This document shows, piece by piece, positions 2,983 through 36,534 of a DNA stretch of 39,546 bases; within the stretch, counting starts at the first letter, position 1, and every line of letters begins with the position of its first letter. Location: positions 81,853 through 121,398 of the forward strand of contig MKTV01000021.1 of NCBI GenBank assembly GCA_001898425.1, read 5' to 3'. This DNA comes from Rhodospirillales bacterium 69-11 (GTDB taxonomy: Bacteria; Pseudomonadota; Alphaproteobacteria; Acetobacterales; Acetobacteraceae). The notes beneath the pieces are model-generated. The model had not been told where the DNA came from and did no database searches. It saw only the letters and a program-made list of their open reading frames with translations. The translations under genes were made by a program, and so were the position numbers.

Positions 2983-2986
2983 CGGC

Positions 2987-4224: not shown

Positions 4225-4232
4225 GGCCATCC

Positions 4233-5423: not shown

Positions 5424-5469
5424 CGCGTCGGACGGTTTGGTCGGAAGCGGCGCTCAGTCGCAGGTGGGA

Positions 5470-5784: not shown

Positions 5785-6074
5785 GGGTGCCTCCCTCGTT
5801 CCACGACGAAGACTCGGCAGCGCGACGATGGTTCCAGCGTCCACTGCAAATCCGCCGGTCAGGGTCGTTGCACGGGCCACGGAAGGACGCAGGCTTCCAT
5901 CCTCTGGCTGCGCCGAGCGCAAAACTCACAACGATCACCCCAGGAGATCAACTCGGACCTGGATCGCGATCATACGAAGCCAGGCGGATCGGGGATGATC
6001 CACCTGGCCGCGCGTGTCGCGATCTGCAGCGATGCCGGCGCGCCGCGAGGATGCCCCGTCGGCGTGAGCCGCCG

Positions 6075-9398: not shown

Positions 9399-10505
9399 TC
9401 AGCCCCCGCCGACCTGGTAGCGAGCGGCATCCCGCTCCTTCAACGTGAGTCCCAGGCCAGGCCGGGACAGGTCCGGACGGATCGCGCCGTCCTTTGCGTA
9501 GGGTGCGCCGTCAAACAGCATCTGCTCGATGCGCACGTGGTCGTGGAACCATTCCAGATGGCGCAGCCGCCGCGCGGAACAGGCCGCGTGAAGGTGCATC
9601 GCCGGGGCGCAATGTGCGGACAGGTCGATGTGGTTGGCCTGGGTCAGCGCCTCCACGGCAAGCCAGCCGGTGATGCCGCCACAGCGCGTCACGTCCGCTT
9701 GCAGCACGTCCACCGCCTGCGCCTCCAGCATGCGCCGGAAATAGTCCAACGTGTAGCCATACTCCCCGGCCGCCACCTGCACCGGACTGGGGACATGGTT
9801 GCGGACGAAGTGCATGCCTTCGAGGTCATCCGAGGAGACGGGCTCTTCGAACCACATCACGCCTTCACCGACGCAGCGCTCCGCCATCACGATCGCCTGC
9901 TTGCGATCGAACGCGCCGTTCGCATCGATGAACAGGCCGGGCCGTTCGCCGATGGCGCTGCGCGCGACGGCGACGCGGGCCGGATCGCGATCGGGTTCGC
10001 TTCCGATCTTCATCTTTACCCAGGCACATCCGTCGCGATGCACCCAGCCGCCGAGTTGCTCGCGCAGTTCGGCGTCATCATAGGTGGTGAAGCCGCCGCT
10101 TCCGTAGATCGGCACGGCGTCGCGGTTCTTGCCCAGCAGCTGGCAGAGCGGCAGGTCGAGCAGCTTGCCCTTCAGATCCCACAGCGCCCCATCGACCGCC
10201 GAGATCGCCGTGGCGACGAGTCCCGGATGCCCCAGGTTCCGGATCGTCGCCGTCATCTTGCGAAACGCGGAGGGCACGTCCATCGCATCCACGCCCGCGA
10301 CGGCCTCCTTGAGCTTCTTCTCGATCAGCGGAACGATCGAGGCATCGGCGTACGTGTACCCGATCCCCGTCTTGCCGCCCGCATCCGCTTCCGCGATCAC
10401 GATCGTCGTCTTGTCCCAGGCGATGGTGCCGTCGGCTTCGGGCTTGTCCGTCGGGATCGTGTAAGCGCGGGCGCGAATGCCCGTGATACGTGCCTCGGGC
10501 GTCAT
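9399..10505 (-). CDS. Mandelate racemase/muconate lactonizing enzyme family protein (enolase superfamily)
   Basis: A 368-residue enolase-superfamily enzyme. Members abstract a proton alpha to a carboxylate; the mandelate-racemase subgroup includes many sugar-acid dehydratases. Visible active-site residues are the KMK motif (Lys164/166), metal ligands Asp194 (FIDANGAF), Glu220 (WFEEP) and Glu248 (AAGEYGY), and the Asp271-His298 dyad (LQADVTRCGG and SAHCAP). This set places it in the mandelate-racemase subgroup and suggests sugar-acid dehydration or racemisation. It begins 7 bases after the TPP-enzyme gene and ends one base before the duplicated membrane-protein gene, in one operon with a gluconate-dehydrogenase-like pair, which supports a sugar-acid substrate. 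The exact substrate is open. Confidence 0.88.
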   Translation of the reverse strand: MTPEARITGIRARAYTIPTDKPEADGTIAWDKTTIVIAEADAGGKTGIGYTYADASIVPLIEKKLKEAVAGVDAMDVPSAFRKMTATIRNLGHPGLVATAISAVDGALWDLKGKLLDLPLCQLLGKNRDAVPIYGSGGFTTYDDAELREQLGGWVHRDGCAWVKMKIGSEPDRDPARVAVARSAIGERPGLFIDANGAFDRKQAIVMAERCVGEGVMWFEEPVSSDDLEGMHFVRNHVPSPVQVAAGEYGYTLDYFRRMLEAQAVDVLQADVTRCGGITGWLAVEALTQANHIDLSAHCAPAMHLHAACSARRLRHLEWFHDHVRIEQMLFDGAPYAKDGAIRPDLSRPGLGLTLKERDAARYQVGGG

Positions 10506-10512
10506 GGCGACC

Positions 10513-12303
10513 TCAGGACCTGCCGGGAAGAATGGTGGACAGCATTTCCTTCGCGGTGTTCTTGATGACGCTCAGCTCCTCGGGGTCGCCGCTCAGCAGC
10601 GTGCTGCTGAAAGCCTTCGCATTCTTCAGCGAGATGTGGGGCGGCAGCGGCGGGACGTTCGGATCGGTGAAGGCCTCGACCACAACCGGCCGGTCGGCCG
10701 ACAGCGCCTCCTCAAGGACGTGCCCGACCTTGTCCGGATTGTCGACGAACAGCCCCTTCAATCCCAGCAACTCGGCATAGCGATGGTACGGGAGGTCGGG
10801 CAGGCTCTGTGAGCCCTCGAACTTCGGATCGCCGGACTGCGCGCGCATCTCCCACGTGACCTGGTTGAGATCGCGATTGTTCAGCACCAGCACGACCAGT
10901 TGGTGGTTCGACCAGGCCTTCCAATACTTCGCGACCGAGATCAGCACGTTGATGCCGTTCATCTGCATCGCGCCGTCGCCCACGATCGCTACAACCGGAC
11001 GATGCGGATGCGCGAACTTCGCGGCAAAGGCATAGGGCATGCCGCAGCCCATCGTCGCGAGGCCGCCCGAGAGGGATGCCATCATGCCGCGACGGATCTT
11101 CAGGTCGCGCGCGAACCAGTTGGTGCCGGAGCCCGAATCGGCGGCGAGGATGCAGCCCTCGGGCAGGCGCGGCGACAATTCCCAGAAGACCCGCTGCGGG
11201 TTCAGCGGGTTCGCGTCATTCATCGCACGCGCCTTCAGCGTATCCCACCATTCGGAGATGCTCGCCTCGATCTTCTGCCGCCAGGACCGATCGGTCTTCC
11301 GCGTGAGCATGGGCAGGAGGGCGCGCAAGGTGGTGGCTGCATCGCCCACCATCGGCACTTCCATCGGATAGCGGAGGCTGAGCATGGCTGGGGAGATGTC
11401 GATCTGCACGCCGCGCGCGCTGCCGATCTTCGGCAGGAACTCGGAGTACGGAAACCCCGATCCGATCATCAACAGGGTATCGCACCCCATCATCATCTCG
11501 TAGCTAGGTCGCGTCCCCAGGAGTCCGATGGAGCCCGTGACGAACGGCAGATCGTCGGGCACGGCGGCCTTCCCGAGCAGGGCCTTTGCGACGCCGGCTC
11601 CGAGCGTCTCGGCGGTCTGGATGACTTCTTCGGTGGCGTTCATCGCACCCGCGCCGACGAGCATCGCGACCTTTTTGCCGGCGTTCAGCACCTCCGCGGC
11701 GCGGCGCAGCGTGCGCTCCTCGGGCATGACGACCGGGGGCTCGTAGCCGATGCCGGTGTGGACCGTGCCGTGCGACTGCGGCGGTTGCTCGACCGCCTTC
11801 TCCTCCTGCACGTCCTTGGGAAGGATGATGCAGGTGACCGTGCGTTCCGCTTTCGCGATGCGGAATGCGCGATCGATCAGGTGCTTCACCTGGGCGGCCG
11901 ACATCGCGGTCTGCACGAAGGCACCGGCGACGTCCTTGAACAGGTTCTGCAGGTCGAGTTCCTGCTGATAGTGTCCCCCAAGGGCTGCTCTTGCCTGCTG
12001 CCCGACGATCGCAACGACCGGCTGATGATCCAGCCGCGCGTCGTACAGGCCGTTCAACAGGTGCACGGCGCCGGGTCCTGACGTCGCGAGGCAGACGCCC
12101 ACTTCGCCGGTGTACTTGGCATGTGCGCACGCCATGAACGCCGCCAGTTCTTCATGGCGGGCCTGGACGAAGTCGATCTTGTCGCTCGCTCGATCCAGCG
12201 CGCCGATCAGGCCGTTGATGCCGTCGCCCGGATATCCGAACACGCGGCGAACGCCCCACTCGTGAAGCCGCTTCCAGAAGAAGTCGCTGACCGTGTTGCT
12301 CAT
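10513..12303 (-). CDS. Thiamine pyrophosphate-dependent enzyme (pyruvate oxidase/acetolactate synthase-like)
   Basis: A 596-residue TPP enzyme of the POX/AHAS/benzoylformate-decarboxylase group, acting on 2-keto acids. The N-terminal pyrimidine-binding domain has the catalytic Glu in ARHEELAAF (about residue 51); a central Rossmann-like domain follows around AMLVGAGAMNATEE; and the C-terminal domain has the TPP-Mg motif GDGAMQMNG starting near residue 442 and ending at VLNN near 475. The start at 12303 has GAGGT five bases upstream; an N-terminal extension to 12408 has no such support. It resembles the proteins called only TPP-requiring protein in many alphaproteobacteria, near PoxB. First gene of the minus-strand operon, divergent from the SDR gene. 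The substrate is unknown. Confidence 0.85.
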   Translation of the reverse strand: MSNTVSDFFWKRLHEWGVRRVFGYPGDGINGLIGALDRASDKIDFVQARHEELAAFMACAHAKYTGEVGVCLATSGPGAVHLLNGLYDARLDHQPVVAIVGQQARAALGGHYQQELDLQNLFKDVAGAFVQTAMSAAQVKHLIDRAFRIAKAERTVTCIILPKDVQEEKAVEQPPQSHGTVHTGIGYEPPVVMPEERTLRRAAEVLNAGKKVAMLVGAGAMNATEEVIQTAETLGAGVAKALLGKAAVPDDLPFVTGSIGLLGTRPSYEMMMGCDTLLMIGSGFPYSEFLPKIGSARGVQIDISPAMLSLRYPMEVPMVGDAATTLRALLPMLTRKTDRSWRQKIEASISEWWDTLKARAMNDANPLNPQRVFWELSPRLPEGCILAADSGSGTNWFARDLKIRRGMMASLSGGLATMGCGMPYAFAAKFAHPHRPVVAIVGDGAMQMNGINVLISVAKYWKAWSNHQLVVLVLNNRDLNQVTWEMRAQSGDPKFEGSQSLPDLPYHRYAELLGLKGLFVDNPDKVGHVLEEALSADRPVVVEAFTDPNVPPLPPHISLKNAKAFSSTLLSGDPEELSVIKNTAKEMLSTILPGRS

Positions 12304-12652
12304 ACGCACCTCGCATGCGCTCGAGTGACAGGCAACGACCGGGGATCCGATCGTCGTGTGGGCCAGGAACTCTGGCGCCGCGATCGGGTTTTCTAAATTG
12401 CCATTCATTTACCAAGATGCGGCCGCAGTGCTGCCGCATCCGCCGGGGCGTGCCGCATTATTTCTCGTTCATCAAAGGGCGGCGCCGAACTTCGATGGGT
12501 GGGCGTAGTTTTTGCCGCGTCGAGCGCCGCCGTCGACAAGTCTGAGTCCGGAACATCGTCCCGAGTGATCACACTTCCTCGCACGCGCCGGCCCGTACGC
12601 CGTTGCCTTCTCACGTGCGGCGTTTCCGCCTTTGAGAACAGGAGATTCGATC
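12304..12652. promoter_or_regulatory. Divergent intergenic region with a 25-bp inverted repeat
   Basis: This 349-base stretch separates the TPP-enzyme operon (minus) from the SDR-GH15 pair (plus) and must hold both promoters. It contains no credible gene. The clearest structure is GATGCGGC at 12416-12423 and its exact complement at 12433-12440, nine bases apart, a possible operator or hairpin. The GCCGCAT arm recurs once more near 12452. No promoter boxes are strong enough to call. Confidence 0.4.
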
Positions 12653-24033: not shown

Positions 24034-26802
24034 TCAAGGCGATTTCGGATCGATTGCGCTGAACGCTCCGGCGAAGAGGTGCTCCAGCTCTTCCCCCGCC
24101 ATGTGGGCCATCAGCAACTGGGCCTGGCATTGTCCCAGCGCGCGATAGCTCTCGAACTGGCTCTCCGAGAACCACTGGTTCGGCGTGGGGTCGTGCGGGA
24201 AATCCTCGTGCAGGTTGGCGTATGCGCGTGCATCCAACGGAGTTCCCGGCAACAGGGACGGCTTCATGTAGATCAGGCGCGCGGTGGGCTCGCTGTCCTC
24301 CGGATACCGGACGAGGCCCACGGCGAAGCCGGACACCGGGGGTTCGGTCACGGTGGAGGCGCGCGGGCGCACCCGCGTGGTGTCGAGATGCGTCACCTCG
24401 ACCTGCTGGTCGATCGCCGCCTTCCGCAGCGCGTTGCCGAGATCCTCGAAGCTGAAGCTCTCATCCTGACCGGCATCCACGATCAGGATCATGCGGCACC
24501 GCCGGCGGAACATCTCGTAGAGCCCGAGGTTCTCGAAGTGGCCGCCGTCGGACAGGTAGATGGATCGGCTCGCCGTTCCCGCACGGCCCAGCAGGTCGCC
24601 CAGCAAAGGATCCAGCGCTCGGACCGGGCGGCCCAGGCTGAGATCGGCGCCGCTCACCGTCGCCGGATTGGGCAGCCAGGCCCCCAGCCGGGCGTTGAAC
24701 AACGTCATCAGGAACGCCGTCACCGGGGAGGAATGATACCCCCAGTTCGGGCTCACCGCGGCCCCTGAGATCGTCATGGCCGTCGCGAGCGTGAGGCCCT
24801 TCGCGGTGTCGATGGGCTCCGATTGTCCTTCCCGGCCGGCATAGCCCACCGTCGGCACATAGACGCCCTCCGGCTGGGCGAAGCGCTCCCCCGGCCGCGG
24901 CAGCAGGGCAGCCCCACAGGACAGCGGGGTGGCGGTGAACGACATGGCCTTGCGTTCCGCCCAGGCCGCCGGATTTCCCGTGTTGAAGTTCAGCGTCATG
25001 TTGATGACGGGAAACAGCCGGCGCGTCCCGGTCGCGCCGGCCAGCGTGCTCAGCGGCATGGCATCGTTCGGATCGAAATTCGTGAACGGATCGGGCTTGC
25101 GATCTTCCTGTCGTGCGGATCCCAGGAACGCGCGGGTCAGCCGGTTGCGGTAGATCGCGTGCATCGAATAGCGATTCACGTTCACGACCCAGTTCACCCA
25201 GGCGACGCCGCCCGCGATGAGCACCGCCGCCGAGAAATGCGCGATCAGAAGCGCATGTCCCGGCCATGCGACGTGCGTGGCCGGAGCGCCGGGCGGAGCC
25301 GGCGCCATCTCCTCGAACCCCGCGACGTGCCTGCGCGCGAAGAAATCACCGAGGACGTCCTGCGCCCCCCCGAGCGCGAGCTGCAGGCAGAAGCCGATCG
25401 TCGCCAGCAGCGCGAGGACGAAGAGGCCGGAGAGTGCGTTGAGCACCAGGGGGCTCGTCATCCAAGGCTGCCGCACCCCGGACATGGAGGGCCCCAGCTG
25501 GGCGGAGACCTGCTTGCCCAGCCAAGCGGCGACAGGTCCTGTCGCCAGCGGCGTGAGCAGGCTGAACCAGAACGGAGGCTCCGCATCCGAGACGAAGGCG
25601 AGCAGGACGTCGGGGATCCCGATGGTGGCGAACGCGAAGACGGCCCACACGCCGCCGAGGCGGAGCTTGAGCGCATTCACCCGCGCGAGCCATTCACGGT
25701 CCATGTCGAACAGGCTCCCGTCCCGGCGCAGACCGACGAACACCGCGCTGTTGATGCCGTTGGACGCCGCGAGCCAGAGCGGGCCCAGCACTGCGAGCGT
25801 TGCCGCTTGCTGCGCCGTCGGGACCTTGTCGACGAGATAGCTGCCGCCCCACGCCAGGCCGCCGGAGACCAGGGTGGCCACGAGCCAGGCCACGCTGTTG
25901 GACACGAAGAGCGCGGCCCGCCCTGCCTCCCGTTTCGTCGCGCTGCGCACCCCCGCTGCGAGGAACGCGAGCCATAACGCGAGGAAGTAGAGCACCGCCA
26001 GGATCAGGCCGCGATGTCCCGAGCTGCCCTCGTGCGCGAGCGTCACCGGCGCGAGGAACAGCCAGACTCCGAAGGGCAGGACCACGCGCATGTCGATCAT
26101 GTGCGGCGGCATGGCGTCGCGCGCCGCATTTTCCGCGGGCGTTCCGGCCCCTGGCTTCAACCGATGATTGGGCAGGCCACGCGCGGACCAGTAGGTGCTC
26201 ACGCCGACGGCCAGGGCCGCGAGACCCATCAGCCCGTACTGCGTCAACGGCCAGGAGCCCGTCGCCCAGATGGCGGTGCGATAGAACACCGGGGCGACCG
26301 CGGCCAGCAGCAGGATCGGCAGGAACACCATGAAGTTCAGGAAGACGTTGCGGAGATAGAGGATGATGTTCGTCCACATGTCGGGTGAGAGCATCCCCGA
26401 TTCGGGCGAAAGGTAGCTCGTGTAGTTGCGCAGGTCGTGCAGCGCCGACCCGGGGGCGCCCCCTTCCCGCAGCGCGTCCACGCCCGCGGCGACGCTGCCC
26501 CGCTGCTTGATCAGCATTTGCAGCCAGGAGCCGATATAGCCCCCGCCGGAGACGGTCGAGAGATAGTCGAACCGCTCCAGGAGCCGGTGGCTCGCCAAGG
26601 CCTGCAGCACCCCCAGGGAGAACGCCGCGCTGCGGATGCCACCGCCCGAGAGGCACAGGGCAGACAGGTTCAGGTCACGCGCGCGATCTCGCACACCCGA
26701 AGCCGTCCTCGGCGGATCCACCCCGCGGATCGCCGCCAGTTCGGCGGCGAGCACCTCTATCGTGGTCTGCACGACTGGCGCATGCCGGCGACTCCTTGCC
26801 AT
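24034..26802 (-). CDS. Patatin-like phospholipase with a large multi-span membrane region
   Basis: A 922-residue protein with a split patatin domain. The N-terminal part has the oxyanion loop SGGGIRS (52-58) and the nucleophile Ser85 in STVSGGGYIGSW. The catalytic Asp is in SDGGHFENLG (Asp752). Between them lie roughly eight or nine hydrophobic helices (about residues 130-560). Patatins hydrolyse acyl esters of lipids; this one should be embedded in the membrane. The nucleophile elbow has Thr in place of the first Gly of GxSxG. The start at 26802 has AGGAGG seven bases upstream; a longer frame to 27237 overlaps the divergent gene and was rejected. Next to two Baeyer-Villiger enzymes it could cleave the esters they form, which is inference. 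Confidence 0.85.
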   Translation of the reverse strand: MARSRRHAPVVQTTIEVLAAELAAIRGVDPPRTASGVRDRARDLNLSALCLSGGGIRSAAFSLGVLQALASHRLLERFDYLSTVSGGGYIGSWLQMLIKQRGSVAAGVDALREGGAPGSALHDLRNYTSYLSPESGMLSPDMWTNIILYLRNVFLNFMVFLPILLLAAVAPVFYRTAIWATGSWPLTQYGLMGLAALAVGVSTYWSARGLPNHRLKPGAGTPAENAARDAMPPHMIDMRVVLPFGVWLFLAPVTLAHEGSSGHRGLILAVLYFLALWLAFLAAGVRSATKREAGRAALFVSNSVAWLVATLVSGGLAWGGSYLVDKVPTAQQAATLAVLGPLWLAASNGINSAVFVGLRRDGSLFDMDREWLARVNALKLRLGGVWAVFAFATIGIPDVLLAFVSDAEPPFWFSLLTPLATGPVAAWLGKQVSAQLGPSMSGVRQPWMTSPLVLNALSGLFVLALLATIGFCLQLALGGAQDVLGDFFARRHVAGFEEMAPAPPGAPATHVAWPGHALLIAHFSAAVLIAGGVAWVNWVVNVNRYSMHAIYRNRLTRAFLGSARQEDRKPDPFTNFDPNDAMPLSTLAGATGTRRLFPVINMTLNFNTGNPAAWAERKAMSFTATPLSCGAALLPRPGERFAQPEGVYVPTVGYAGREGQSEPIDTAKGLTLATAMTISGAAVSPNWGYHSSPVTAFLMTLFNARLGAWLPNPATVSGADLSLGRPVRALDPLLGDLLGRAGTASRSIYLSDGGHFENLGLYEMFRRRCRMILIVDAGQDESFSFEDLGNALRKAAIDQQVEVTHLDTTRVRPRASTVTEPPVSGFAVGLVRYPEDSEPTARLIYMKPSLLPGTPLDARAYANLHEDFPHDPTPNQWFSESQFESYRALGQCQAQLLMAHMAGEELEHLFAGAFSAIDPKSP

Positions 26803-27019: not shown

Positions 27020-27460
27020 ATGAGTGTGACGACCAGCGATGATCTGCTGAAGCTGAGCCAGGCCGAACTGGATGCGCTGTTCAGTGCCCATGATCCTGGC
27101 CCGATCCCGAACGGCGAGGCGAAGGGCACCGCAATCGTCGCACCCGGCACCACCTTCAACGCCGAGATCGCGCAGGCGATCAATCTGTTCGCGTGGCAGG
27201 GCAAGGTGTTCGACAGCGCCACGATGACGCTGCGCAATCACATCCTGCCGTTCGGGCTAAAGGCGGTGATCGCGCGGATCAAGCAGGAGCCCAGCTGGCT
27301 GGACGGCAAGCCGTGCATCGTTCTCGACTATTCCGAGACGTCGATGGTCGCGCAGTGGATCCGCGACGAGATCAGGCTGATCGCGCCGGGTCTCTATCTC
27401 GGCAAGGTATACTGGTCGAAGACGCGGCTGATCGATTTCGCCCTGCAGTTCCCCGTGTAG
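27020..27460 (+). CDS. Conserved-looking small protein of unknown function
   Basis: A 146-residue soluble protein with no signal peptide, membrane helix or Cys cluster. AGGAGG stands directly upstream of the ATG at 27020, a strong ribosome binding site. The first 40 residues are acidic and helical (SQAELDALFSAHDPGPIP), and the rest looks like a compact alpha/beta domain with QAINLFAWQGKVFD, NHILPFGLKAVIARIKQ and the C-terminal APGLYLGKVYWSKTRLIDF. The last stretch, with GLYLG, reads like a lipocalin- or ligand-binding-type beta segment, but I cannot name a family. It is divergent from the patatin-like gene and convergent with the cytochrome operon. Confidence 0.75.
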   Translation: MSVTTSDDLLKLSQAELDALFSAHDPGPIPNGEAKGTAIVAPGTTFNAEIAQAINLFAWQGKVFDSATMTLRNHILPFGLKAVIARIKQEPSWLDGKPCIVLDYSETSMVAQWIRDEIRLIAPGLYLGKVYWSKTRLIDFALQFPV

Positions 27461-27495: not shown

Positions 27496-28947
27496 CTACA
27501 GCGTCTTGAGGAAGGTCAGAAGGGCGCGCTTGGCGTCTTTATCCAGATCGGTGCCGTAGACGTGGCCGCCATTGCCGTTGCCGCGCAGCCGGGTGTCGAA
27601 GCGGAAGCCGTGCGCCTCTGCCGCCGGGCCGGTCGCCACGAACCCCACCTGCTCGCGATCCAGCACGTCGTAGCCACGCCAGAAGACGGTTGGGCGTTCG
27701 GCTGGCGCCCGCAACAGGTCCGCCAATGTCGGCACCGACCCGTTGTGCAGATAGGGCGCGAGCAGCCATACGCCGGTCAGCGGCCGCGCCACGTAGCCGG
27801 ATGCGCCTCGCAAGGGTGCGTCGCTCATGCCGATCGCGCGCGTCAGCCGGTTCATGCGGGCGGCATCCTTGTCCTGCCAGGTGCGCACATGCTCCGGATC
27901 GGTGCCGATCTCCTCCAGCGGGATCACGGTGCCGGTCCGAGCCCCGCCGACCTCGTGGCACGTGGCGCATCGGGCGGCATAGACGGCGCGTCCAGCGGAT
28001 ACCTCGGCCGAATCCAGCGGGGCGGGGAAGGGCGGAGGCGGAAGGTCGCGCAGGAATGCGACGATCCAGTCGTTGCGGGCATGGAAGCCAGGCAGCGGCA
28101 GTGATCCCACGCCGAGGGCGGACGTCGCCGTCACCCCGTAGAGCGACACCCCCTCGCCGCCCGCGTGCAGCGGCATCCCATCCCGCAGGCCCATCCGCCA
28201 GAGACCCGGGAAGTCGGTGTTGCCGACGGTGTCGTCCAACGGCGTCCGGGTCAGGATGAATTTCGGCAGATTGAACGCATCGTCTCGTCCGGGGCCCCAG
28301 GCCGGGCGGGTCTCGGTCCAGGCGAGCTGGCGTCCGGCCATGTCCAAGGCGAACCGCGTCACCGGGATCAGCACCCAGCCGTAGAGCTTGGCCTCGACCC
28401 AGTTCAGCGGGAAGTTGAGCGCGATCTCCGGCAGCAGCCGCGCGCTGTTGAAGCGATCGTCCCGTGCCGCGGCCACCAGGAAGTGCACGAGGTTGCCGAG
28501 GTCCAGCGCATGCGCGGGCCCGCCCGGCACGATGTGCTGGTCGCCCTCGGGCGACTCGCGCCAGGTGGCGGTGTGGCACAGCGCGCAGGTGATGGTGACG
28601 CGGTCGTACACACGGTGGTCGATCGAGAACCCGGCCGGCAGCGCCTGCCCTTGCTCCCACGCCACTCCGAACGCGCCGTAGCCGCCCCATCCCGGCTTCG
28701 CGGGCCCGTAGCCCGCGGTCGCGTACTGCGCGACCAGGTCCGGGAACACCCGCGGCAACACCATGAAGATCGGGTAGGGGATGCCGAGTGCCGAACCGCC
28801 CACCGACCCGTAGAGGAAGCGGTCGGTGTCGCAGGCGAAGTGCTGCGGCCCCGGACGCAGCACCAGCACGAGGCCGACCACGGCCATGACCACCAGTACG
28901 AGCAGGCCGGCGAGAGCGAGCAGGCAGGCGCGCAGGACCCGACCCAT
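27496..28947 (-). CDS. Di-heme c-type cytochrome, RoxA-like superfamily (483 residues)
   Basis: A membrane-anchored periplasmic protein: one N-terminal hydrophobic helix (about residues 7-30), then two heme motifs, CALCH at 121-125 and CATCH at 327-331, 206 residues apart. After the second heme comes APYLHNGSVPTLADLL (397-412) and the C-terminal DKDAKRALLTFLKTL. Two hemes about 200 residues apart and the PYLHNGSVPT block resemble RoxA-type rubber oxygenases rather than classic bacterial cytochrome c peroxidases, where spacing is nearer 145. The start codon shares one base with the stop of the upstream cytochrome gene (TGATG). It is the last gene of a four-gene operon. It may transfer electrons or act as an oxygenase/peroxidase; sequence alone does not decide. 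Confidence 0.85.
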   Translation of the reverse strand: MGRVLRACLLALAGLLVLVVMAVVGLVLVLRPGPQHFACDTDRFLYGSVGGSALGIPYPIFMVLPRVFPDLVAQYATAGYGPAKPGWGGYGAFGVAWEQGQALPAGFSIDHRVYDRVTITCALCHTATWRESPEGDQHIVPGGPAHALDLGNLVHFLVAAARDDRFNSARLLPEIALNFPLNWVEAKLYGWVLIPVTRFALDMAGRQLAWTETRPAWGPGRDDAFNLPKFILTRTPLDDTVGNTDFPGLWRMGLRDGMPLHAGGEGVSLYGVTATSALGVGSLPLPGFHARNDWIVAFLRDLPPPPFPAPLDSAEVSAGRAVYAARCATCHEVGGARTGTVIPLEEIGTDPEHVRTWQDKDAARMNRLTRAIGMSDAPLRGASGYVARPLTGVWLLAPYLHNGSVPTLADLLRAPAERPTVFWRGYDVLDREQVGFVATGPAAEAHGFRFDTRLRGNGNGGHVYGTDLDKDAKRALLTFLKTL

Positions 28948-30503
28948 CAGAAGGTCTTCAGGAACTCGACCAACGCGTCCTTGTCGGACGCGGGCAGGTC
29001 GGTGCCGTATCTGGGGCCATCATGGCCGCGGTTGCTGTTGCCGGCCCACGGGCCGGGCGCGCACGTGTTCTCCTCATGCCGGTTCTCCGGGTTCGCCGCG
29101 ACCGCACATTGCGCGCTGCCCTCCGGACACCGGGTTTCGAAGCGGAACAGCTTGCGCCCGTGCTCTTCCGCCTCCGTGGTGACGAAGCCGAGACGCTCCG
29201 GATCGATCAGGTCGTCGCCGCGCCAGAAGGCGGCCGGCCTGCGCTCCCACGGCTCGAGCAGGTCACGCACGGTCGGGACCGATCCGTTGTGCAGATAGGG
29301 TCCTCGCAGCCACACCCCGTCCAAGGGCGCGTTCGCATAGCCATGCGTCTTCCGGAAATGGCGGAAGCGCTGGTCCGGGTAGGCGGCGTACAGGTTGCCT
29401 TGCTCGACGGCGAGCGCCGCCGTGTAGTTGTCCAGGCGGCAGGGATCCGTGCCGATCTCCTCGATCGGGGTCACCTGCCCGACCTGGGCGCCCGTGAAGT
29501 CGCGTCCGCTCGCGCCGTGGCAGCCGGCGCAGAGCCGCGCGTAGATCGGTGCGCCGCGGGCCGCGAGGGGCTGGTCGATCGGAAGCGGCCATTTCGGCGG
29601 CACGTTGCCGGGAGAGCGCAGCCAGGAAGCGGTCTCCGCCAGCGACGCATCGTCTGCCAGAGGGGGAACGGCGCCGGTGCCGAACCCGGCACTGCGATTG
29701 CGCTCCTCCACGGAGTCGTTGTTGCCGTCCCAATGGAGATGCATGCCGGCCCGAGCGCCCTGCAGCCAGAGCGACGGGAAGTCCACGATGCCGGTGGTCT
29801 CCCGCGCGGGCAGCAACTCCTGTGGCCAATTGAGCAGCGCCTTCAGCGGGCCGAACGTATCGAACCGGCCAGGACCGCCCGCCACCTCATAGTCCAGGAA
29901 GCGCAGCCGGAAGCGTGCGAACACCACGGCTTCGCGCAGGGCGGGGACGGCGACGTAGCGCAGCAGGAAGCGGTCGACCGGGCCGTATCGCGCACCGGTC
30001 GCCTCCGCCGCCTGCACCACCTGCCAGGGATTGAAGCGCTCGTCGAGCATGCAGTTCTCGAGGAAGCGCGTGAAGGCGACGAGATCCAGCCGGTTCGCGG
30101 GCATGCCCGGGACGATGACGGCGGGACCGTCGCGCTCGAGCCGGTAGGTGCCGACATGGCACGTGGCGCAGTTCAGGGAGACGCGCTCGAGCCCGAGGGT
30201 CTGCCGTAGCGACGTTCCGATCGGGCGATCCATTCCCGGCTCGTAGATGAAGCCCAGGGACTCCCACCCGTCACCCGGGAGGTAGTCGCGGCAGAGCCGG
30301 GGCAGCGCCTTGAAGATCCCGATCGGGATGCCGGCCAGCCGGTCGCCGCCGGTCGAGCCGTATTTGAACTGCTGGACCGGGTTCGCGAAATGCTGCGGGA
30401 TGTCCGCGCGGTATCGCTGCACGGCGATCGCGGCGCCGGCAAGCAGGACGACGAGCACGAGCGCCATCGCGACCCAGACGGGGCGAAGGCGCCGGAGCTT
30501 CAT
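28947..30503 (-). CDS. Di-heme c-type cytochrome, RoxA-like superfamily (518 residues)
   Basis: A paralogue of the downstream gene: an N-terminal anchor (about 9-28), heme motifs CATCH at 112-116 and CAGCH at 325-329, GPYLHNGSVPTVRDLLEP (401-418) and the ending DKDALVEFLKTF. Extra Cys residues between 459 and 481 could form a disulfide absent from the 483-residue protein. The segment QFKYGSTGGDRLAGIPIGIFKALPRL near the N-terminus (45-70, split here for description) matches FLYGSVGGSALGIPYPIFMVLPRV of the neighbour, so the two are homologous along their full length. The chosen start at 30503 overlaps the GMC stop as ATGA; the frame is open much further upstream, but there it only shadows the GMC gene. 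Confidence 0.87.
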   Translation of the reverse strand: MKLRRLRPVWVAMALVLVVLLAGAAIAVQRYRADIPQHFANPVQQFKYGSTGGDRLAGIPIGIFKALPRLCRDYLPGDGWESLGFIYEPGMDRPIGTSLRQTLGLERVSLNCATCHVGTYRLERDGPAVIVPGMPANRLDLVAFTRFLENCMLDERFNPWQVVQAAEATGARYGPVDRFLLRYVAVPALREAVVFARFRLRFLDYEVAGGPGRFDTFGPLKALLNWPQELLPARETTGIVDFPSLWLQGARAGMHLHWDGNNDSVEERNRSAGFGTGAVPPLADDASLAETASWLRSPGNVPPKWPLPIDQPLAARGAPIYARLCAGCHGASGRDFTGAQVGQVTPIEEIGTDPCRLDNYTAALAVEQGNLYAAYPDQRFRHFRKTHGYANAPLDGVWLRGPYLHNGSVPTVRDLLEPWERRPAAFWRGDDLIDPERLGFVTTEAEEHGRKLFRFETRCPEGSAQCAVAANPENRHEENTCAPGPWAGNSNRGHDGPRYGTDLPASDKDALVEFLKTF

Positions 30504-32383
30504 GCCGCCCTCGCCAGCCTGGCGTCGGCGAGGACGACGTCGGCGGCCTTCTCGGCCGCGAGGTAAATCGCGCCCGCGATGAAGAAGCCGGGGATACGTG
30601 GGAAGATCGAGGCGTCGACGACGCGCAGGCCGCGCGCGCCGTGGACGCGGAGGCGGCCGTCCAGCACGCCGCCGGCCTCCACGGGACCGATCGCGGCGGT
30701 CCCGCTCGCGTGGTGGCCCCAGGCCGTGTCGCGTATCCAGCCCGCAATCTCGTCGTCCGACTGCATGGCCGGCCCGGGCACCTCTTCCGCGGCGACCAGG
30801 CCGCGGTCGGCGAGGGGGCGCACCAGCTTCCGGACCGACCGCACCGCGCCGACCATGGCGGCGAGGTCCGCCTCTCCGCCGGTATCGAAGGAGTTGAACG
30901 CGATCTCCGGCATGTCGCGCGGATCGGATGATCGGAGCCGCACGCGACCGGCGCTGTTGCCGGTGTGCGCCTTCAGGATCGTCCAGGACAGCGCGTCGTG
31001 GTGTGCCGCGACTTCCCGCGAGTAGCCCGGGGCGTAGCCGTTGAAGCGGGCGAGCAGCGCCATGCAGAACAGGTCGGGCGTGGGCACGCCGGGGCTGGAG
31101 CGGGCGGTGAACGCCAGGGCCGTGCCGTTCGTCACGTACATGCCCTGGCGGCGTTGCCACTGCCGGAACGGCCGATCGCCCTTCCGGAACCGGGCACCCG
31201 CCAGGACGCGCCAGTCCCGTGCCATGCGGGAGATGACGGACACTTCGTAGCGGTCCTGCAGGTTACGGCCGACCCCGGGCGAGGCCACCCGCAGCGGGAG
31301 GCCGTGACGCGCCAGCTCCTCGGGCGGGCCGATGCCGGAGAGCATCAGGAGCTGCGGGGTGTTGAACGTTCCCCCGGCAAGGATGACCTCCCCGGTGCAC
31401 CCGACCCGGCGAAGCTCGCCTGCCCGGGCCGCCCCAGGGGACATATCAGGGGACGTATCAGGGGACATGCCAGGACAAGCGGAATACAGGCGCGCGCCCT
31501 TCAGGTACTCGACGCCGACCGCCCGCTGCGTGTCGTCCAGCACGACACGGGTGACGAGGGCGTCCAGTTCGATCCGCAGCCTGTCGGGATGCCGTCGCAT
31601 GACGTCCAGCAGACGCTCGCGCGTGCCGTAGCGCCGGCCGCCATCGGTGCACAGCGGCGGATAGCACAGGCCGGTGGAGCCGCTCTCGAGGATGCGACGG
31701 TCGTTCGGATCGGCCCGCCCCTGGACGAGGCGCCAGAGCGACCGGATCAGGTCCGGCTCATCCAATTGGAACCTCGCCGCGGACAGTAGGAGGCTCAGGA
31801 TCAGGGTGTGGTCACCCCAGACCTGCGGCGGCACGGCCTTCTCCGTCGGCAGCCACCCCTTCCAGCCATGGCCGGTGGGATCGAGGCCGAAGCGGGACAG
31901 GAAGCGCCACAGCGGCCGATGCCGGCATTGCTCGAGCCGGCGGACGTAGGGGCGCATGGCGGCGGCGGACCAGGACGGATCGCCGGTCAGCCGCGCGATG
32001 CCGTCCCAGTCCGCGTCCTGGGGCCACATCGTGATCATGGCGTTGTGCGCCGTGCAGCCGCCGAGTGTTCCGGCGCGGGGATAGAAGATGCCGGCCGGCG
32101 TGCGCTTCGGGTCGCGGCCGCGCTGCGCGGGATCGGCGAAATGCTCGACGAAGAAGTCCCACGCCATGCTCGGGTTTTCCGACGCGAAGGGATGGAACGC
32201 GGGAACGTCGTAGTCCTCCGGCAGCCGATCGTCTTCGGCGGTGCGGGGATCGCTTCCCGCCTCGATCACCAGGACACGGGCACCGGCTTCGGCCAACCGT
32301 GCGCCCACCGTGCCGCCGCCGGCGCCGGAGCCGACCACGATGTAGTCCCAGCTCTCCTCCACGCCGGAGCCCGCGCGGTGCAT
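30500..32383 (-). CDS. GMC-family FAD oxidoreductase linked to cytochromes
   Basis: A 627-residue GMC flavoprotein with VGSGAGGG at 17-24, PRAGTLGGCTAHNAM (102-116) near the flavin, and the catalytic His pair in WGHHASG (555-561). The C-terminal FPRIPGFFIAGAIYLAAEKAAD has Phe/Ala where most GMC enzymes carry the second catalytic Asn or His; I believe this is a trait of one GMC clade, not a mutation. An unusual loop at 304-317 (PGMSPDTSPDMSPG) is encoded by a 12-base tandem repeat. No signal peptide is visible, although its operon partners are periplasmic cytochromes. It lies four bases after the 803-residue cytochrome gene and overlaps the next one by four bases. Confidence 0.87.
   Translation of the reverse strand: MHRAGSGVEESWDYIVVGSGAGGGTVGARLAEAGARVLVIEAGSDPRTAEDDRLPEDYDVPAFHPFASENPSMAWDFFVEHFADPAQRGRDPKRTPAGIFYPRAGTLGGCTAHNAMITMWPQDADWDGIARLTGDPSWSAAAMRPYVRRLEQCRHRPLWRFLSRFGLDPTGHGWKGWLPTEKAVPPQVWGDHTLILSLLLSAARFQLDEPDLIRSLWRLVQGRADPNDRRILESGSTGLCYPPLCTDGGRRYGTRERLLDVMRRHPDRLRIELDALVTRVVLDDTQRAVGVEYLKGARLYSACPGMSPDTSPDMSPGAARAGELRRVGCTGEVILAGGTFNTPQLLMLSGIGPPEELARHGLPLRVASPGVGRNLQDRYEVSVISRMARDWRVLAGARFRKGDRPFRQWQRRQGMYVTNGTALAFTARSSPGVPTPDLFCMALLARFNGYAPGYSREVAAHHDALSWTILKAHTGNSAGRVRLRSSDPRDMPEIAFNSFDTGGEADLAAMVGAVRSVRKLVRPLADRGLVAAEEVPGPAMQSDDEIAGWIRDTAWGHHASGTAAIGPVEAGGVLDGRLRVHGARGLRVVDASIFPRIPGFFIAGAIYLAAEKAADVVLADARLARAA
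31434..31469. repeat. Three 12-bp tandem repeats inside the GMC gene
   Basis: Three in-frame units of the form (C/T)CAGGGGAC(A/G)T(A/G) run at 31434-31445, 31446-31457 and 31458-31469, with a decayed partial fourth after that. They encode the alternating MSPD/TSPD loop near residues 304-317. Because the unit is a multiple of three, copy number can change without breaking the frame. Confidence 0.85.
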
Positions 32384-32387
32384 CGGC

Positions 32388-34799
32388 TCAGAACGTCTTC
32401 ATGAAGGCGATCAGCGCGTTCTTGTCGGCGTCGCTCAATGCCGGTTCGGCCGACTGCATGGACGTGCCGAAATAATGCCCCCGGTTGACGACGAAGTCCG
32501 GACACTTGTTCAGCGCCAGCAGGGGCCTCGCGAGATTCGCGAAATGAGTGCGCAGTTGCTCGTCCGTGGCATCCGCGGGCAGGGTCAGCAGGTCGAGCTT
32601 CAGGCGCAGCAGCAGCCGCGCGAGCTGCAGGTAATGCGCCCCGATGTCACCCCCCTCCGCCAGGGGTTGCAGGTTGGCGAGCAGGTTCACCGGCACGCCG
32701 GCCGGGATCGGACCAAGCCGGATGCCGCCATCCGCTTCGAACAGTCGCGGCACGACATGGCGCACGGCACGCAGCGGTTCGGGGATGAAGCCGGCCGGGA
32801 TGATCAGGAAGCTGCGTGCCGTGGTGCGGTCGATGACGCCGGGCACCTTGTCGCCGAGGATCGCGTCCTTCCGGCGCCGCTCCGGCCAGAGCATCTGCTC
32901 CATCGACGCCTGGAACACCCGCACGCGCGCGGCGACCGACGGATCATGCTCATAAGGACCGACGGTGTTGTTCAGCAGGAACGGCGCCGTGGACCAGACG
33001 CTGACCAGCGATGGCGGGCGAGTGTAGCCGCGGCCACCGGCCGGCATCACGTACGGCCGAGCGTCGCCGGTGAAGGGGTCGTGCACGGTGATCGCCCCGA
33101 CCGAGGGCAGCGACTTGTAGCTGGCGGAGGAGAAATCGTTCCAGATGTTGCCGGAGAGTGCATTGGTCGCGAGCGGACTGCAGGCGTTCGTCTGGAGCAA
33201 GGTCACGGGGACCCGCGCCTCCGTCGACAGGAAGTTGTCCTGCAGGAAGTCGGGCGCGGCGACGATCTCGCGCATCTTCGCCTTGAACGCGTCGGTGCGC
33301 GTCCAGGCCCAGTAGCGGTCCCAGCAGCGCATGTAGTTCGGCCCCGCGCAGCCTTGCAGGTTGGCCTCGGCCGGGATCGGGGCGGGCAGCTTGCTGGAAT
33401 GGCAGCGCGCGCAGGTCTCGGCGAACACCGTCTTGCCGCGATCGAGGATGGCGGCGTCGGTTTCCAGGTAGGCGGCGCCCCCCGGTGCGTCGGCCAGGTG
33501 ATCCGGTTGCCCCGCATGCAGGAAGAACCGCGCCATGTCGGGCGTGCCTTGTTCGGTGGCCTGCCAGTAGGCCGAGTTGCGCTGCGCCGTAGCGATGCGG
33601 ATCGGCGTGATCGGCTTGCCGCCGATCACGGGATTGAAGTGGCGGAGCCACTCCTCACTGTACAGTCCGATGTTCAGGTAGACCCGGTTGAGCGCCCCGA
33701 GCGCGCCGACGGCATCGGACCCGTCCTTCAGCACGTGCGGCGTGAAGACGGTTCCGGGCTTCTGGAAGAACTGGGTGAGCGGCCCTGACGAGACGAAATC
33801 GTTGAACTGCCGGTTGTTCCTCTCGGGCCCGACGATGCTCTCTTTTCCCCATCGCAGCGCCTGGGCCATGCGCGCGCCCAGGTTGTAGATCGCGTTCATG
33901 GTGCGGGGGTTGTTGATGTTGTCCGTCGAGACCAGAGACGTGTCCATCGCGCCCGGACGATATGTGTGCACCAGCTGGAACATGAAGTTCCGTGGATCGG
34001 CGCCGTAGACGAAGATTCGATCGACCCACATGTATTGTGCGCCGACCGTCGAGTTCAGTTCGGACCATTGCGGGTGTGCGGCGTCTGCGGGCGGATGGAT
34101 CGGGCTTGGTCCGACATGGCAGAAGCCGCAGCTCATTCCCACGCGATAGGGCCGCACCAGCTTGGGGTCGTCATAGTACGACGGGTCGGAATAGTAGCGC
34201 TCCGGATCCCAGCGCTCGCGTGCGGCTTCGTCGAAATCGGGGTTGGTGAACAGGCGCAGGCCGACGATCCCGCTGGGTTCGCCGAAATAGGAGCCGACGG
34301 GCACGGTCTTCCCGCGCGATCCCAGGGCGACCCCGGGATACTTCGCCGGATCCGCGAAAGGATCGGGGGGGCAGGCATCGCGACGCTTGTCGAGCCACAG
34401 GCCGAAGCGCGCCGGATCCGGGCCGTCGGCCTTTTCGAAGCAGGGCTCGTTGACGACCCCCAGCCAATCCCAGCGGCTGTCGCGATCGGCCTTCTGGCCG
34501 GGATGCGAGGTCACGATCTTCAGCAGGTCGAACGCGCCGAAGGTGCTGCGTGTCATGCCGTCCCAGAAACGGTCATTGCCGCCGGTCCAGACCAGCCACA
34601 TGTTCCGGCCGCGCACTTCCTCCGGCGTCAGCGGGATGCCGTTGTCCATGTCATGGAAGTAGTCCTCGCTGGCCTGTGGCAGGCTGGCGGCCGTTCGCCC
34701 GGCGCGCTTGGCCTCGTCCAGCGGCTGTGCGGCCGCGAAGCCAATCGCCAAGAGTGTCGTCGCGAGCAGGGTGACTGCCCCCTTCACTCTGGCCGGCAT
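32388..34799 (-). CDS. Large di-heme c-type cytochrome (803 residues), RoxA-like superfamily
   Basis: A secreted protein with a cleavable signal peptide (residues 1-24, ending FAAAQ) rather than a retained anchor. Heme motifs are CGFCH at 224-228 and CARCH at 463-467, 239 residues apart. The equivalent of the PYLHNGSVPT block is APFLLNNTVGPY (605-616), and the end ADKNALIAFMKTF matches the C-termini of the two smaller cytochromes, so all three are related. The additional length lies in a roughly 200-residue N-terminal region and in the region after the second heme, which has extra Cys and many aromatic residues. First gene of the operon, four bases before the GMC gene. It could be the catalytic oxygenase or peroxidase of the set; this is inference. 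Confidence 0.85.
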   Translation of the reverse strand: MPARVKGAVTLLATTLLAIGFAAAQPLDEAKRAGRTAASLPQASEDYFHDMDNGIPLTPEEVRGRNMWLVWTGGNDRFWDGMTRSTFGAFDLLKIVTSHPGQKADRDSRWDWLGVVNEPCFEKADGPDPARFGLWLDKRRDACPPDPFADPAKYPGVALGSRGKTVPVGSYFGEPSGIVGLRLFTNPDFDEAARERWDPERYYSDPSYYDDPKLVRPYRVGMSCGFCHVGPSPIHPPADAAHPQWSELNSTVGAQYMWVDRIFVYGADPRNFMFQLVHTYRPGAMDTSLVSTDNINNPRTMNAIYNLGARMAQALRWGKESIVGPERNNRQFNDFVSSGPLTQFFQKPGTVFTPHVLKDGSDAVGALGALNRVYLNIGLYSEEWLRHFNPVIGGKPITPIRIATAQRNSAYWQATEQGTPDMARFFLHAGQPDHLADAPGGAAYLETDAAILDRGKTVFAETCARCHSSKLPAPIPAEANLQGCAGPNYMRCWDRYWAWTRTDAFKAKMREIVAAPDFLQDNFLSTEARVPVTLLQTNACSPLATNALSGNIWNDFSSASYKSLPSVGAITVHDPFTGDARPYVMPAGGRGYTRPPSLVSVWSTAPFLLNNTVGPYEHDPSVAARVRVFQASMEQMLWPERRRKDAILGDKVPGVIDRTTARSFLIIPAGFIPEPLRAVRHVVPRLFEADGGIRLGPIPAGVPVNLLANLQPLAEGGDIGAHYLQLARLLLRLKLDLLTLPADATDEQLRTHFANLARPLLALNKCPDFVVNRGHYFGTSMQSAEPALSDADKNALIAFMKTF

Positions 34800-35022: not shown

Positions 35023-36534
35023 TCAGGATCCGAGGGATGAAGGCGAACGGTCACCCGCGTCGTTGGGACGGGCGACCCCGGCCCGCTCCATCTTCACCCT
35101 GGGCGGTCTCCCGATCCAAGGTGGCACGCGGGCGATGCGGAGCAGGCCGGCGACGCTGGACAGACCACGCAGCGAGCGCCGCGCTTCCAGCATGATGTCG
35201 CGCATCATCAGGCGGCTGCTCGTTCCGGCCGCCTCCTCCACGAAGGACAGCTGGTGCAGGGCGAGCAGGCCGAGGACGAACGCGATGCCGAAGAAGAAGG
35301 TCCAGGCGTGGAAGTTCAGCACCTGGACGGTGACGTCCTGCAGTCCGCCTCTCCACGTGAATGCCAGGGTCAGTTCGTGTGTCGCGAAGAAGTCCGCGCA
35401 CAGGCCGCCGACGATCGGTGCGACGGCGGCACAGCTCGCGCTCACGACGCCACTGGCCGCCAGGAACGAGGTCGCCTGCCCCGCGGGTGAGAGCTTCATC
35501 GCGATGTTGCCGGTGGCGAGCGTCACGCCGGCGATCGCGATGCCCATCAGGACGTGAATGCCCAGCAGCAGGTAGAAGGTGATCGGCTTCGCCCATGCCA
35601 GACCGGTCAGGCTCCAGGCCAAGGTGCACAGCAGGAACAGGGGCGCGGCGAAACGCAGCACGGCCTTGTTGCTGAACCGGTCGCTCAGGCTGCCCCATAG
35701 CCCAATCGCCGCGATGTTGCTCAGCTGGCTCGCCGTGCTGAGGACGATGACGGTGCGCAGCGGGTAATCGAGGCTCTTGAGCATGTAGACGGCGAAGAAC
35801 GGGGAGGCGAGGTTCGCCGCGAAGTTCCACGAGGCGAGGAACGCCATGAGGCGGCGGAAATTCCTGTGGCGGAATGGCGCGATCAGCAGGGGAAGCATCG
35901 GCGTGTGCTTCGTTGCCGGGGGCATGGGCTGATCGGGCGTGATCGACAAGAGCCGAACCCCGAGGAACCCGATGGCGGCGCTGACCAGGAACAGGCCGGC
36001 GTAGGAGGTTCCCGGCACGGCGAACGTCATGCGGCCCAGGAAGTCCACCAGGACGCCGCCAGCGAGCGCAAGCGCGGTTGCCATCGCGGTGTTGGCCGCA
36101 GCGCGCCGTCCGAAGAAGCGGCCGAACTCGGTCTCGGGAACGAGGTCGCGCATCCAGGAATTCCAGGCGCACCCCGCGACCGCCGCGGCGGCCTGGTAGA
36201 CGGCGATGGAGGCCACCAGGATGGCCACGCTGGAGCCGCCCCCGACGAAGGGGGCGAGCGCCGCGACGATCAGGAAGCAGCGGCCGATCCCCGCGCTCCA
36301 GGTGCAGATGGCACGGCGCCGGCGGAGGCGCTCCACCAGGATGACGCCGGGGAATTGCAGGAACTGCACGGCGAACGGCACCGCCGCGAGCAGGCCGATC
36401 GCGAAGTTGCTGGCGCCGAGAGCAAGGGCGAAGCCGGTCAGGAAAACACCCGTACTCAGCGTGCTCATCGCCTCGCTCGCCAGGGCGTCGTAGGTGAGGA
36501 GCCGGAAGGTCCGGTTCAGGTCGGTCGCGGTCAT
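35023..36534 (-). CDS. MFS-family transporter
   Basis: A 503-residue membrane protein with about twelve hydrophobic helices and the basic loop VERLRRRRAI after helix 2 (about residues 67-77) that corresponds to the conserved MFS loop 2-3 motif; a similar site in the second half is LSDRFSNKAVLR. The N-terminus (FRLLTYDALASEAMSTLSTGVFLTGFALALGAS) is typical of a group of uncharacterised bacterial MFS proteins. The substrate is unknown. The gene lies 50 bases after the ABC permease gene on the same strand and 223 bases before the large cytochrome gene, so it may close the ABC transcript. Confidence 0.85.
   Translation of the reverse strand: MTATDLNRTFRLLTYDALASEAMSTLSTGVFLTGFALALGASNFAIGLLAAVPFAVQFLQFPGVILVERLRRRRAICTWSAGIGRCFLIVAALAPFVGGGSSVAILVASIAVYQAAAAVAGCAWNSWMRDLVPETEFGRFFGRRAAANTAMATALALAGGVLVDFLGRMTFAVPGTSYAGLFLVSAAIGFLGVRLLSITPDQPMPPATKHTPMLPLLIAPFRHRNFRRLMAFLASWNFAANLASPFFAVYMLKSLDYPLRTVIVLSTASQLSNIAAIGLWGSLSDRFSNKAVLRFAAPLFLLCTLAWSLTGLAWAKPITFYLLLGIHVLMGIAIAGVTLATGNIAMKLSPAGQATSFLAASGVVSASCAAVAPIVGGLCADFFATHELTLAFTWRGGLQDVTVQVLNFHAWTFFFGIAFVLGLLALHQLSFVEEAAGTSSRLMMRDIMLEARRSLRGLSSVAGLLRIARVPPWIGRPPRVKMERAGVARPNDAGDRSPSSLGS

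Follow-up and report, generated by a model that had tools for sequence, protein, structure and literature searches.

As far as the papers cited below describe it, the RoxA superfamily of di-heme cytochromes includes few enzymes with a known reaction, the reactions being rubber cleavage and oleate oxygenation. RoxA binds O2 at its N-terminal heme, close to F317; H641 is a ligand of its other, C-terminal heme (PMC6311187). RoxC is described as having no counterparts of the RoxA residues W302 and F317 and as being of unknown function (PMC10837239). In Pseudomonas aeruginosa, the tandem di-heme RoxA relatives PA2077 and PA2078 (FadCcp) are described as oleate 10S-dioxygenase and 7,10-diol synthase, respectively (PMC4496055). 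According to the same paper, PA2077 oxygenates oleate and requires both heme histidines; it retains the inter-heme Trp, which is replaced by Ser in PA2078, and both proteins retain the F317 equivalent (PMC4496055, Table 1). Other genera have homologues of this pair too, as reported for Paracoccus sanguinis (PMC6377657). Here, we describe a locus of Rhodospirillales bacterium 69-11 (Acetobacteraceae), found in a stretch of 39,546 nucleotides (contig MKTV01000021.1, positions 81,853 to 121,398; hereafter, the window), that encodes three di-heme cytochromes (CytA, CytB, and CytC), a GMC flavoprotein, and a patatin-like lipid acyl hydrolase. We favor the view that it is a lipid oxygenation unit at the inner membrane, most likely acting on fatty acids, with a probability of about 0.5 judged from sequence comparisons. 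The observations behind this view are the gene set, its recurrence in other genomes, a GMC-patatin fusion, the pattern of oxygen-site residues, and the proximity of patatin and alpha-dioxygenase-like genes.

Gene content and layout of the locus

An earlier note on this DNA had described four tightly packed genes in the interval 27496-34799, and such packing is indeed seen: CytA, GMC, CytB, and CytC follow each other from 34799 down to 27496 as minus-strand open reading frames (ORFs), with a 4-base gap between CytA and GMC, a 4-base overlap between GMC and CytB, and a 1-base overlap between CytB and CytC. The interval holds these four genes and omits the patatin-like gene at 24034-26802 and the small gene at 27020-27460. 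The unit is larger than that, as it includes the patatin-like lipase gene and, probably, the small convergent gene. The features are as follows.

32388..34799, minus strand: CytA, di-heme c-type cytochrome of 803 residues (ORF scan; signal-like start judged by eye)
34116..34130, minus strand: CytA heme motif 1, CGFCH, residues 224-228
33399..33413, minus strand: CytA heme motif 2, CARCH, residues 463-467
30500..32383, minus strand: GMC flavoprotein of 627 residues (ORF scan and Pfam)
28947..30503, minus strand: CytB, di-heme RoxA-like cytochrome of 518 residues (ATG within a longer GTG ORF)
30156..30170, minus strand: CytB heme motif 1, CATCH, residues 112-116
29517..29531, minus strand: CytB heme motif 2, CAGCH, residues 325-329
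27496..28947, minus strand: CytC, di-heme RoxA-like cytochrome of 483 residues (ORF scan and profiles)
28573..28587, minus strand: CytC heme motif 1, CALCH, residues 121-125
27955..27969, minus strand: CytC heme motif 2, CATCH, residues 327-331
24034..26802, minus strand: patatin-like lipid acyl hydrolase, 922 residues from the start chosen (Pfam and motifs)
27020..27460, plus strand: small protein of 146 residues, family unknown, convergent to CytC
35023..36534, minus strand: MFS transporter gene upstream of CytA, membership in the unit uncertain (Pfam)

The CytB gene was missed by a codon-position gene caller, owing to an antisense ORF; we accepted it because its product is 78% identical to its counterpart in Pseudoroseomonas coralli (locus L034; fetched loci are given L numbers and genomes G numbers where they need to be told apart). 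Each of the three cytochromes has two CxxCH motifs, 239 (CytA), 213 (CytB), and 206 (CytC) residues apart, in agreement with the range of 206-239 noted previously, and a C-terminal block (DKNALIAFMKTF in CytA, DKDALVEFLKTF in CytB, and AKRALLTFLKTL in CytC).

The cytochromes compared with RoxA and with PA2077/PA2078

Profile searches support the assignment of CytB and CytC to the RoxA-like/NF040606 family rather than to the classic cytochrome c peroxidases. CytB and CytC score 158.7 and 175.5 bits, respectively, against NCBIfam NF040606 (cut-off 150) and 53.6 and 62.7 bits against Pfam PF21419, RoxA-like_Cyt-c (cut-off 26.7), whereas CytA, at 26.9 and 13.4 bits, falls below both cut-offs; all five NF040606 matches of the window genome lie within this locus. 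Among solved structures, RoxA matches best in a search with a 12-row profile (4b2n, E value of 4e-22, compared to 0.03 for a cytochrome c peroxidase). The cytochrome c peroxidase/MauG families of Pfam are absent among the matches listed for the window proteins, from which HMMER drops most of those above an E value of 0.1, and the match of CytC to the model of the MbnH family di-heme enzyme is very weak (10.7 bits versus a cut-off of 362.85). A classic cytochrome c peroxidase operon was considered and rejected on these Pfam matches and the two E values. At the same time, CytB and CytC reach only 38.9 to 64.9 bits against the NCBIfam models of RoxA, RoxB, and RoxC, which have cut-offs of 900 to 1000. 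They differ from these proteins in being shorter, anchored, and clustered with GMC and patatin genes. As for NF040606, its name, “di-heme-cytochrome C peroxidase,” is a label rather than a tested function.

The earlier note had preferred RoxA-type oxygenases to cytochrome c peroxidases for all three proteins, had treated them as members of one family, and had proposed a check with hidden Markov models. In that check, CytB and CytC fall outside the classic cytochrome c peroxidase/MauG group and pass the RoxA-like and NF040606 cut-offs, so that both claims stand for this pair, with the proviso that the NCBIfam model they pass is named for a peroxidase. Neither claim extends fully to CytA, which is, in profile comparisons, a remote relative of the RoxA-like family and no full member: its E value to RoxA is 7.7e-4 (six-row profile), its one-to-one comparison with CytB gives 0.006 at best, and in a profile-profile comparison with CytB the last 29 columns alone align (probability 98).

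CytB and CytC are 39% identical, which indicates homology rather than chance, and each starts with a hydrophobic N-terminal anchor according to a hydrophobicity scan. Both combine the two CxxCH motifs with a PYxHNGSVP motif (PYLHNGSVPT is common to both) and a His at the position of RoxA H641, the second ligand of the C-terminal heme; in CytB, the HNGS histidine is H405 and the H641 equivalent is H494. CytA also has a His at the H641 position and retains a C-terminal NRGH, but the PYLHNGSVPT-like block previously ascribed to all three proteins reads APFLLNNTVGP in CytA and has no HNGS histidine. Structure models were unusable, and membership of CytB and CytC in the family therefore rests on profiles: the CytB model, built from a 12-row alignment, had a pLDDT of 45.9 and gave RoxA as its top, not significant, Foldseek match (E value of 0.39, TM score of 0.19), and the CytA model (6-row alignment) had a pLDDT of 30.6.

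At the oxygen site, RoxA W302 and F317 align with W258 and F274 of CytB and with Ala and Leu of CytC, in a middle region where the alignment is weak (20.6 bits). To place these residues on a tree, we started from 55 proteins, excluded 10 with fewer than 250 residues, and then left out 4 of the other 45 because they did not contain two CxxCH motifs. In the resulting tree of 41 proteins, CytB and CytC form clades of nine rows each, both with a support of 100, which come from the same nine loci, indicating that the pair has been inherited together; the tree program warned of long branches, all of them outside these two clades. Both Trp and Phe are retained in 9/9 members of the CytB clade, whereas in the CytC clade Trp is lost in 8/9, Phe in 8/9, and both in 7/9.

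These features invite comparison with PA2077/PA2078, which we regard as a partial precedent for a putative oxygenation of fatty acids by CytB and CytC, likened by description only. The two systems share tandem di-heme paralogues (the overlapping CytB and CytC genes being a candidate operon), a motif given as PYFHNGSVP for the Pseudomonas pair, a C-terminal axial His (PMC4496055), and, in part, the retention of Trp in one partner and its loss in the other. The differences, as far as the Pseudomonas proteins are described, are several. The heme motifs are 245 and 235 residues apart in PA2077 and PA2078 and 213 and 206 residues apart in CytB and CytC, i.e., outside the range of 235-245; the lengths are 634 and 624 residues versus 518 and 483; the Pseudomonas proteins have cleavable signal peptides, with a transmembrane helix predicted in PA2077 only, rather than hydrophobic N-terminal anchors; and both retain the F317 equivalent, which CytC of the window has lost. 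The Pseudomonas operon adjoins a gene for the LysR regulator OdsR (PA2076) (PMC6377657), and no CytA, GMC, or patatin is described in it, unlike in the window. The suggestion in the earlier note that the system had not been described thus needs to be narrowed: a search of open-licence papers, preprints not included, found no description of the CytA-GMC-CytB-CytC-patatin gene set, but tandem RoxA relatives that oxidize oleate are known.

Recurrence of the gene set and its lipid-related neighbors

Together, CytA, GMC, CytB, and CytC are found in six other fetched loci (L034, L035, L056, L057, L067, and L075; in L035, GMC is cut by the contig end), and in L036 CytA, GMC, and CytB are followed by the end of the contig before CytC. 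The survey of genomes that had been suggested thus finds the four genes together elsewhere, in three arrangements. The P. coralli locus has the order of the window, CytA-GMC-CytB-CytC plus the small convergent gene, with proteins 66 to 81% identical to those of the window (81% for CytA). The second arrangement, OYE-CytB-small membrane protein-CytC-CytA-GMC, is found in the rhizobial plasmids L056 (pRL11, whose CytA is 47% identical to that of the window), L057, and L075 and in L067 (genome G500); a patatin gene follows the cluster in L056 and L075 (in the latter, it is annotated as two pieces), lies on the other side in L067, and is not annotated beside the cluster in L057. In the third one, seen in two loci of genome G051, GMC-CytA is divergent from patatin-OYE-CytB-small(-CytC). 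The OYE-type flavoprotein, which stands beside CytB in the pRL11-type and peroxidase-type clusters, matches general ene-reductases first and 12-oxophytodienoate reductase lower when compared to solved structures, and for this reason we draw no substrate from it.

Wherever a fetched locus contains a CytA that is at least 35% identical, GMC adjoins it; this holds for ten loci, several of them close kin (the window, L034, L035, L036, L056, L057, L067, L073, L074, and L075). In the plasmid collection, a comparison of accessions places at least 18 of the 21 records with a CytA match also among the 40 CytB records listed (56 matched); three of the 18 were examined. In Mesorhizobium onobrychidis plasmid pOM4 (L073) and Rhizobium CCGE532 (L074), GMC and a window-type patatin form a single open frame of 1562 or 1537 residues behind a CytA homologue that is 35-36% identical to CytA over its main part. 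The patatin portions are 30-39% identical to that of the window over the matched parts, and in Pfam the L073 fusion matches GMC_N and GMC_C, with Patatin at 26.6, just under the cut-off of 27.7. We regard this fusion as the strongest link within the gene set.

A further group (L030 to L033 and L062 to L064) has a remote CytA (26-30% identity), a lipoprotein, and then CytB and CytC. The lipoprotein ties it to the window-type group, as it is a homologue of the small protein of the window, which matches the L031 lipoprotein with an E value of 1e-14, is 79% identical to its counterpart at the same place in L034, and matches no Pfam family. A mono-heme protein lies between the lipoprotein and CytB in 5/7 of these clusters; in L031 (3608-5170), it has 520 residues and only one heme motif, CTGCHQ, and matches no Pfam family. 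The L031 record (210-8227) is labelled Candidatus Kuenenia, but its matches equal those of genome G410, which is from the class of the window, so it is probably a mislabelled or mis-binned metagenome-assembled genome; L065 (G410) is probably the same contig, and the two were counted once in neighborhood lists.

Of the genomes searched, 9 of 385 at class level and 4 of 398 at phylum level encode CytB-like proteins with E values of up to 1e-30, the window genome being included in both counts. A CytC query matched 19 of 150 family genomes at E values of up to 1e-10, with most of its length covered only in G000 and G051.

The GMC flavoprotein contains GMC_oxred_N and GMC_oxred_C domains in Pfam, as does choline oxidase, and shares the first catalytic His with it (H558). 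It differs at the position of choline oxidase N510, which we take to be a catalytic residue and which is F601 here; the same Phe is found in L034, pRL11, and L067 and, as judged by eye, in both GMC-patatin fusions (L073 and L074). The pair of His plus His/Asn that characterizes alcohol-oxidizing GMC enzymes is thus absent from all four proteins checked, that of the window included, and because of this Phe the enzyme may not be a standard alcohol oxidase. Its flavin adenine dinucleotide-binding motif lies within about 18 residues of the start in the window, L034, and pRL11, and no hydrophobic start is seen, which is weak evidence against export, since the same scan missed the signal-like start of CytA. 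The patatin-like protein scores 40.7 bits against Pfam Patatin (cut-off 27.7), has VSGGG at 84, DGG at 752, and a GGGIR motif, and contains several hydrophobic segments. A periplasmic oxidation system built around the flavoenzyme, as proposed in the earlier note, is therefore doubtful: GMC has no export signal that we could see and is fused to a multi-helix patatin in two plasmids.

Linkage to lipid-related genes was counted in 13 genomes with CytB-like loci (about 70.8 Mb, genome sizes rounded). Within 10 kb of 14 CytB loci, chosen by similarity to CytB and including the window and several related loci, two of them near-identical ones from G051, there are 5 of the 52 patatin matches above the cut-off, against an expectation of 0.24 (P = 5e-6); for the animal-type peroxidase genes (14 rows merged by hand into about 11), the count is 4 and the expectation is 0.05 (P = 2.5e-7). 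The full-length L058 peroxidase is closest to fatty acid alpha-oxidase/alpha-dioxygenase (E value of 4e-109; the best match outside that group, a lactoperoxidase, has 1e-28), and genes 54-62% identical to it adjoin CytB in L066, L069, and L070. Other possible lipid hydrolases near a cytochrome include an LCAT-like protein in L062, alpha/beta hydrolases in L058 and L068, a candidate scoring below the cut-offs in L069, and a 1150-residue fusion of GMC with an alpha/beta hydrolase just upstream of the CytB-like gene of L071 (5580-9032). Patatin relatives stand beside di-heme cytochromes in two Methylobacterium loci, L059 (40% identical to that of the window, under the Pfam cut-off) and L083, and, as annotated, in Sinorhizobium fredii L061. 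Three of eight neighborhoods of window-type patatins on plasmids contain a GMC fragment with small c-type cytochromes (L077), a peroxidase (L078), or the di-heme cytochrome just mentioned (L083).

Beyond the cluster, L056 and L058 have an annotated MFS gene at a distance of about 5-6 kb from CytB or its operon, and no MFS match is present in the neighborhoods of L034 and L035. At 44-4224 (plus strand), the window encodes an oxidase set that might act as an electron sink (COX2 with a cytochrome c domain, COX1, COX3, and CtaG). A second GMC oxidoreductase gene is found at 6075-7955 (minus strand), about 16 kb from the cluster, with MR_MLE and thiamine pyrophosphate enzyme genes at 9399-12408 on the same strand.

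Proposed function and its alternatives

In the scheme that we infer for substrate, order of steps, O2 chemistry, sidedness, and electron flow, the patatin would release an acyl chain, i.e., a fatty acid or a similar lipid. At the periplasmic face, where it is anchored, CytB would, like RoxA, use its N-terminal heme to bind O2 and would insert it into an unsaturated chain, and CytC, the paralogue without the oxygen-site Trp and Phe, could process the resulting hydroperoxide or pass electrons. CytA, paired with GMC, might serve a second oxidation step, in which GMC, on the cytoplasmic side beside the patatin, would oxidize or rearrange the oxygenated product.

Several points weigh against this scheme. 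The parts of the cluster are separable: the fetched stretches of L030 to L033 and L062 to L064 contain no GMC despite having CytB and CytC, and those of L073 and L074, which hold CytA-GMC-patatin, contain no CytB or CytC match. The residue pattern of CytC is not universal, as L030 retains the Trp and L062 the Phe, and in the pRL11-type clusters both paralogues retain the Trp and neither retains the Phe. PA2078 is reported to stay active after mutation of either heme histidine (PMC4496055), so that the hemes of CytC may matter little. Among the lipid-related genes, 5 of the 8 plasmid neighborhoods of window-type patatins (43 records matched) have no annotated cytochrome, GMC, or peroxidase; the L068 animal-type peroxidase is not matched by the alpha-dioxygenase-like protein of L058; and the window genome has no PF03098 peroxidase and none of the alpha-dioxygenase-like genes seen elsewhere. 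Finally, GMC and patatin look cytoplasmic, but the cytochromes must be periplasmic.

Among the alternatives, the one that survives best, although we consider it unlikely, is oxidation of an isoprenoid, terpenoid, sterol, or hydrocarbon, with CytB cleaving or oxygenating an isoprenoid double bond and GMC oxidizing the resulting alcohol. The closest solved relative of CytB is a rubber-cleaving enzyme whose W302 and F317 have equivalents in CytB, and the CytB-like gene of L071 adjoins a Rieske oxygenase gene as well as the GMC-hydrolase fusion. Yet CytB and CytC, shorter and anchored, score far under the cut-offs of RoxA, RoxB, and RoxC, and the linkage to patatin and alpha-dioxygenase-like genes speaks for acyl lipids. 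We give somewhat less credit to the idea that CytB and CytC are peroxidases that reduce or isomerize lipid hydroperoxides with electrons from respiratory cytochromes and thereby protect the membrane. It would agree with the NCBI label of NF040606 and with the report that PA2078 acts on a hydroperoxide and relieves its toxicity (PMC4496055), but the O2-site residues of CytB suit an oxygenase, the second ligand position of the C-terminal heme holds a His, like in RoxA, and the role of GMC and the lipase would be left unexplained. Far less probable is a MauG-like maturation, in which the cytochromes would act on a partner protein to generate its protein-derived cofactor. The PYLHNGSVP motif is of the MauG type, CytC has its very weak MbnH match, and pOM4 carries a gene for a LodA/GoxA-type oxidase dependent on cysteine tryptophylquinone (L073 1-1351) at a distance of about 7 kb from CytA and the GMC-patatin fusion; however, RoxA is the best profile match, and no quinone-enzyme gene was noticed among the other annotated or Pfam-scanned neighbors, although no dedicated search was made. 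Chance adjacency of unrelated cytochrome, GMC, and patatin genes, which we find scarcely credible even though neither L034 nor L035 shows the MFS gene or its further neighbors next to the cluster and window-type patatins also occur without cytochromes, was rejected given the recurrence across loci (the four genes in three orders, the GMC-patatin fusion in two plasmids, and CytA by GMC in all ten loci) and the patatin and peroxidase linkage counts.

Accordingly, we favor lipid oxygenation over isoprenoid oxidation and place peroxide defense after both. A broader and more tentative proposal is that the cluster represents an oxylipin-type system, as yet undescribed, that spans the membrane in Alphaproteobacteria, symbiotic rhizobia among them, and in which an inner module of the lipase and the His/Phe GMC (fused in some members) and an outer trio of di-heme oxygenases might oxygenate membrane or host lipids.

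The gene set connects the RoxA superfamily to a lipase and a flavoenzyme and supplies a testable class of substrates. The probable oxygenation of fatty acids or related lipids would be an undescribed use of this cytochrome-GMC-lipase gene set and, if shown, would make it a second kind of bacterial oxylipin system besides the one in Pseudomonas. The gene set occurs on plasmids of rhizobia used in the laboratory, namely Rhizobium johnstonii 3841 (pRL11) and S. fredii CCBAU 45436. Lipid oxygenation by this cluster, if shown, could bear on plant-microbe signaling.

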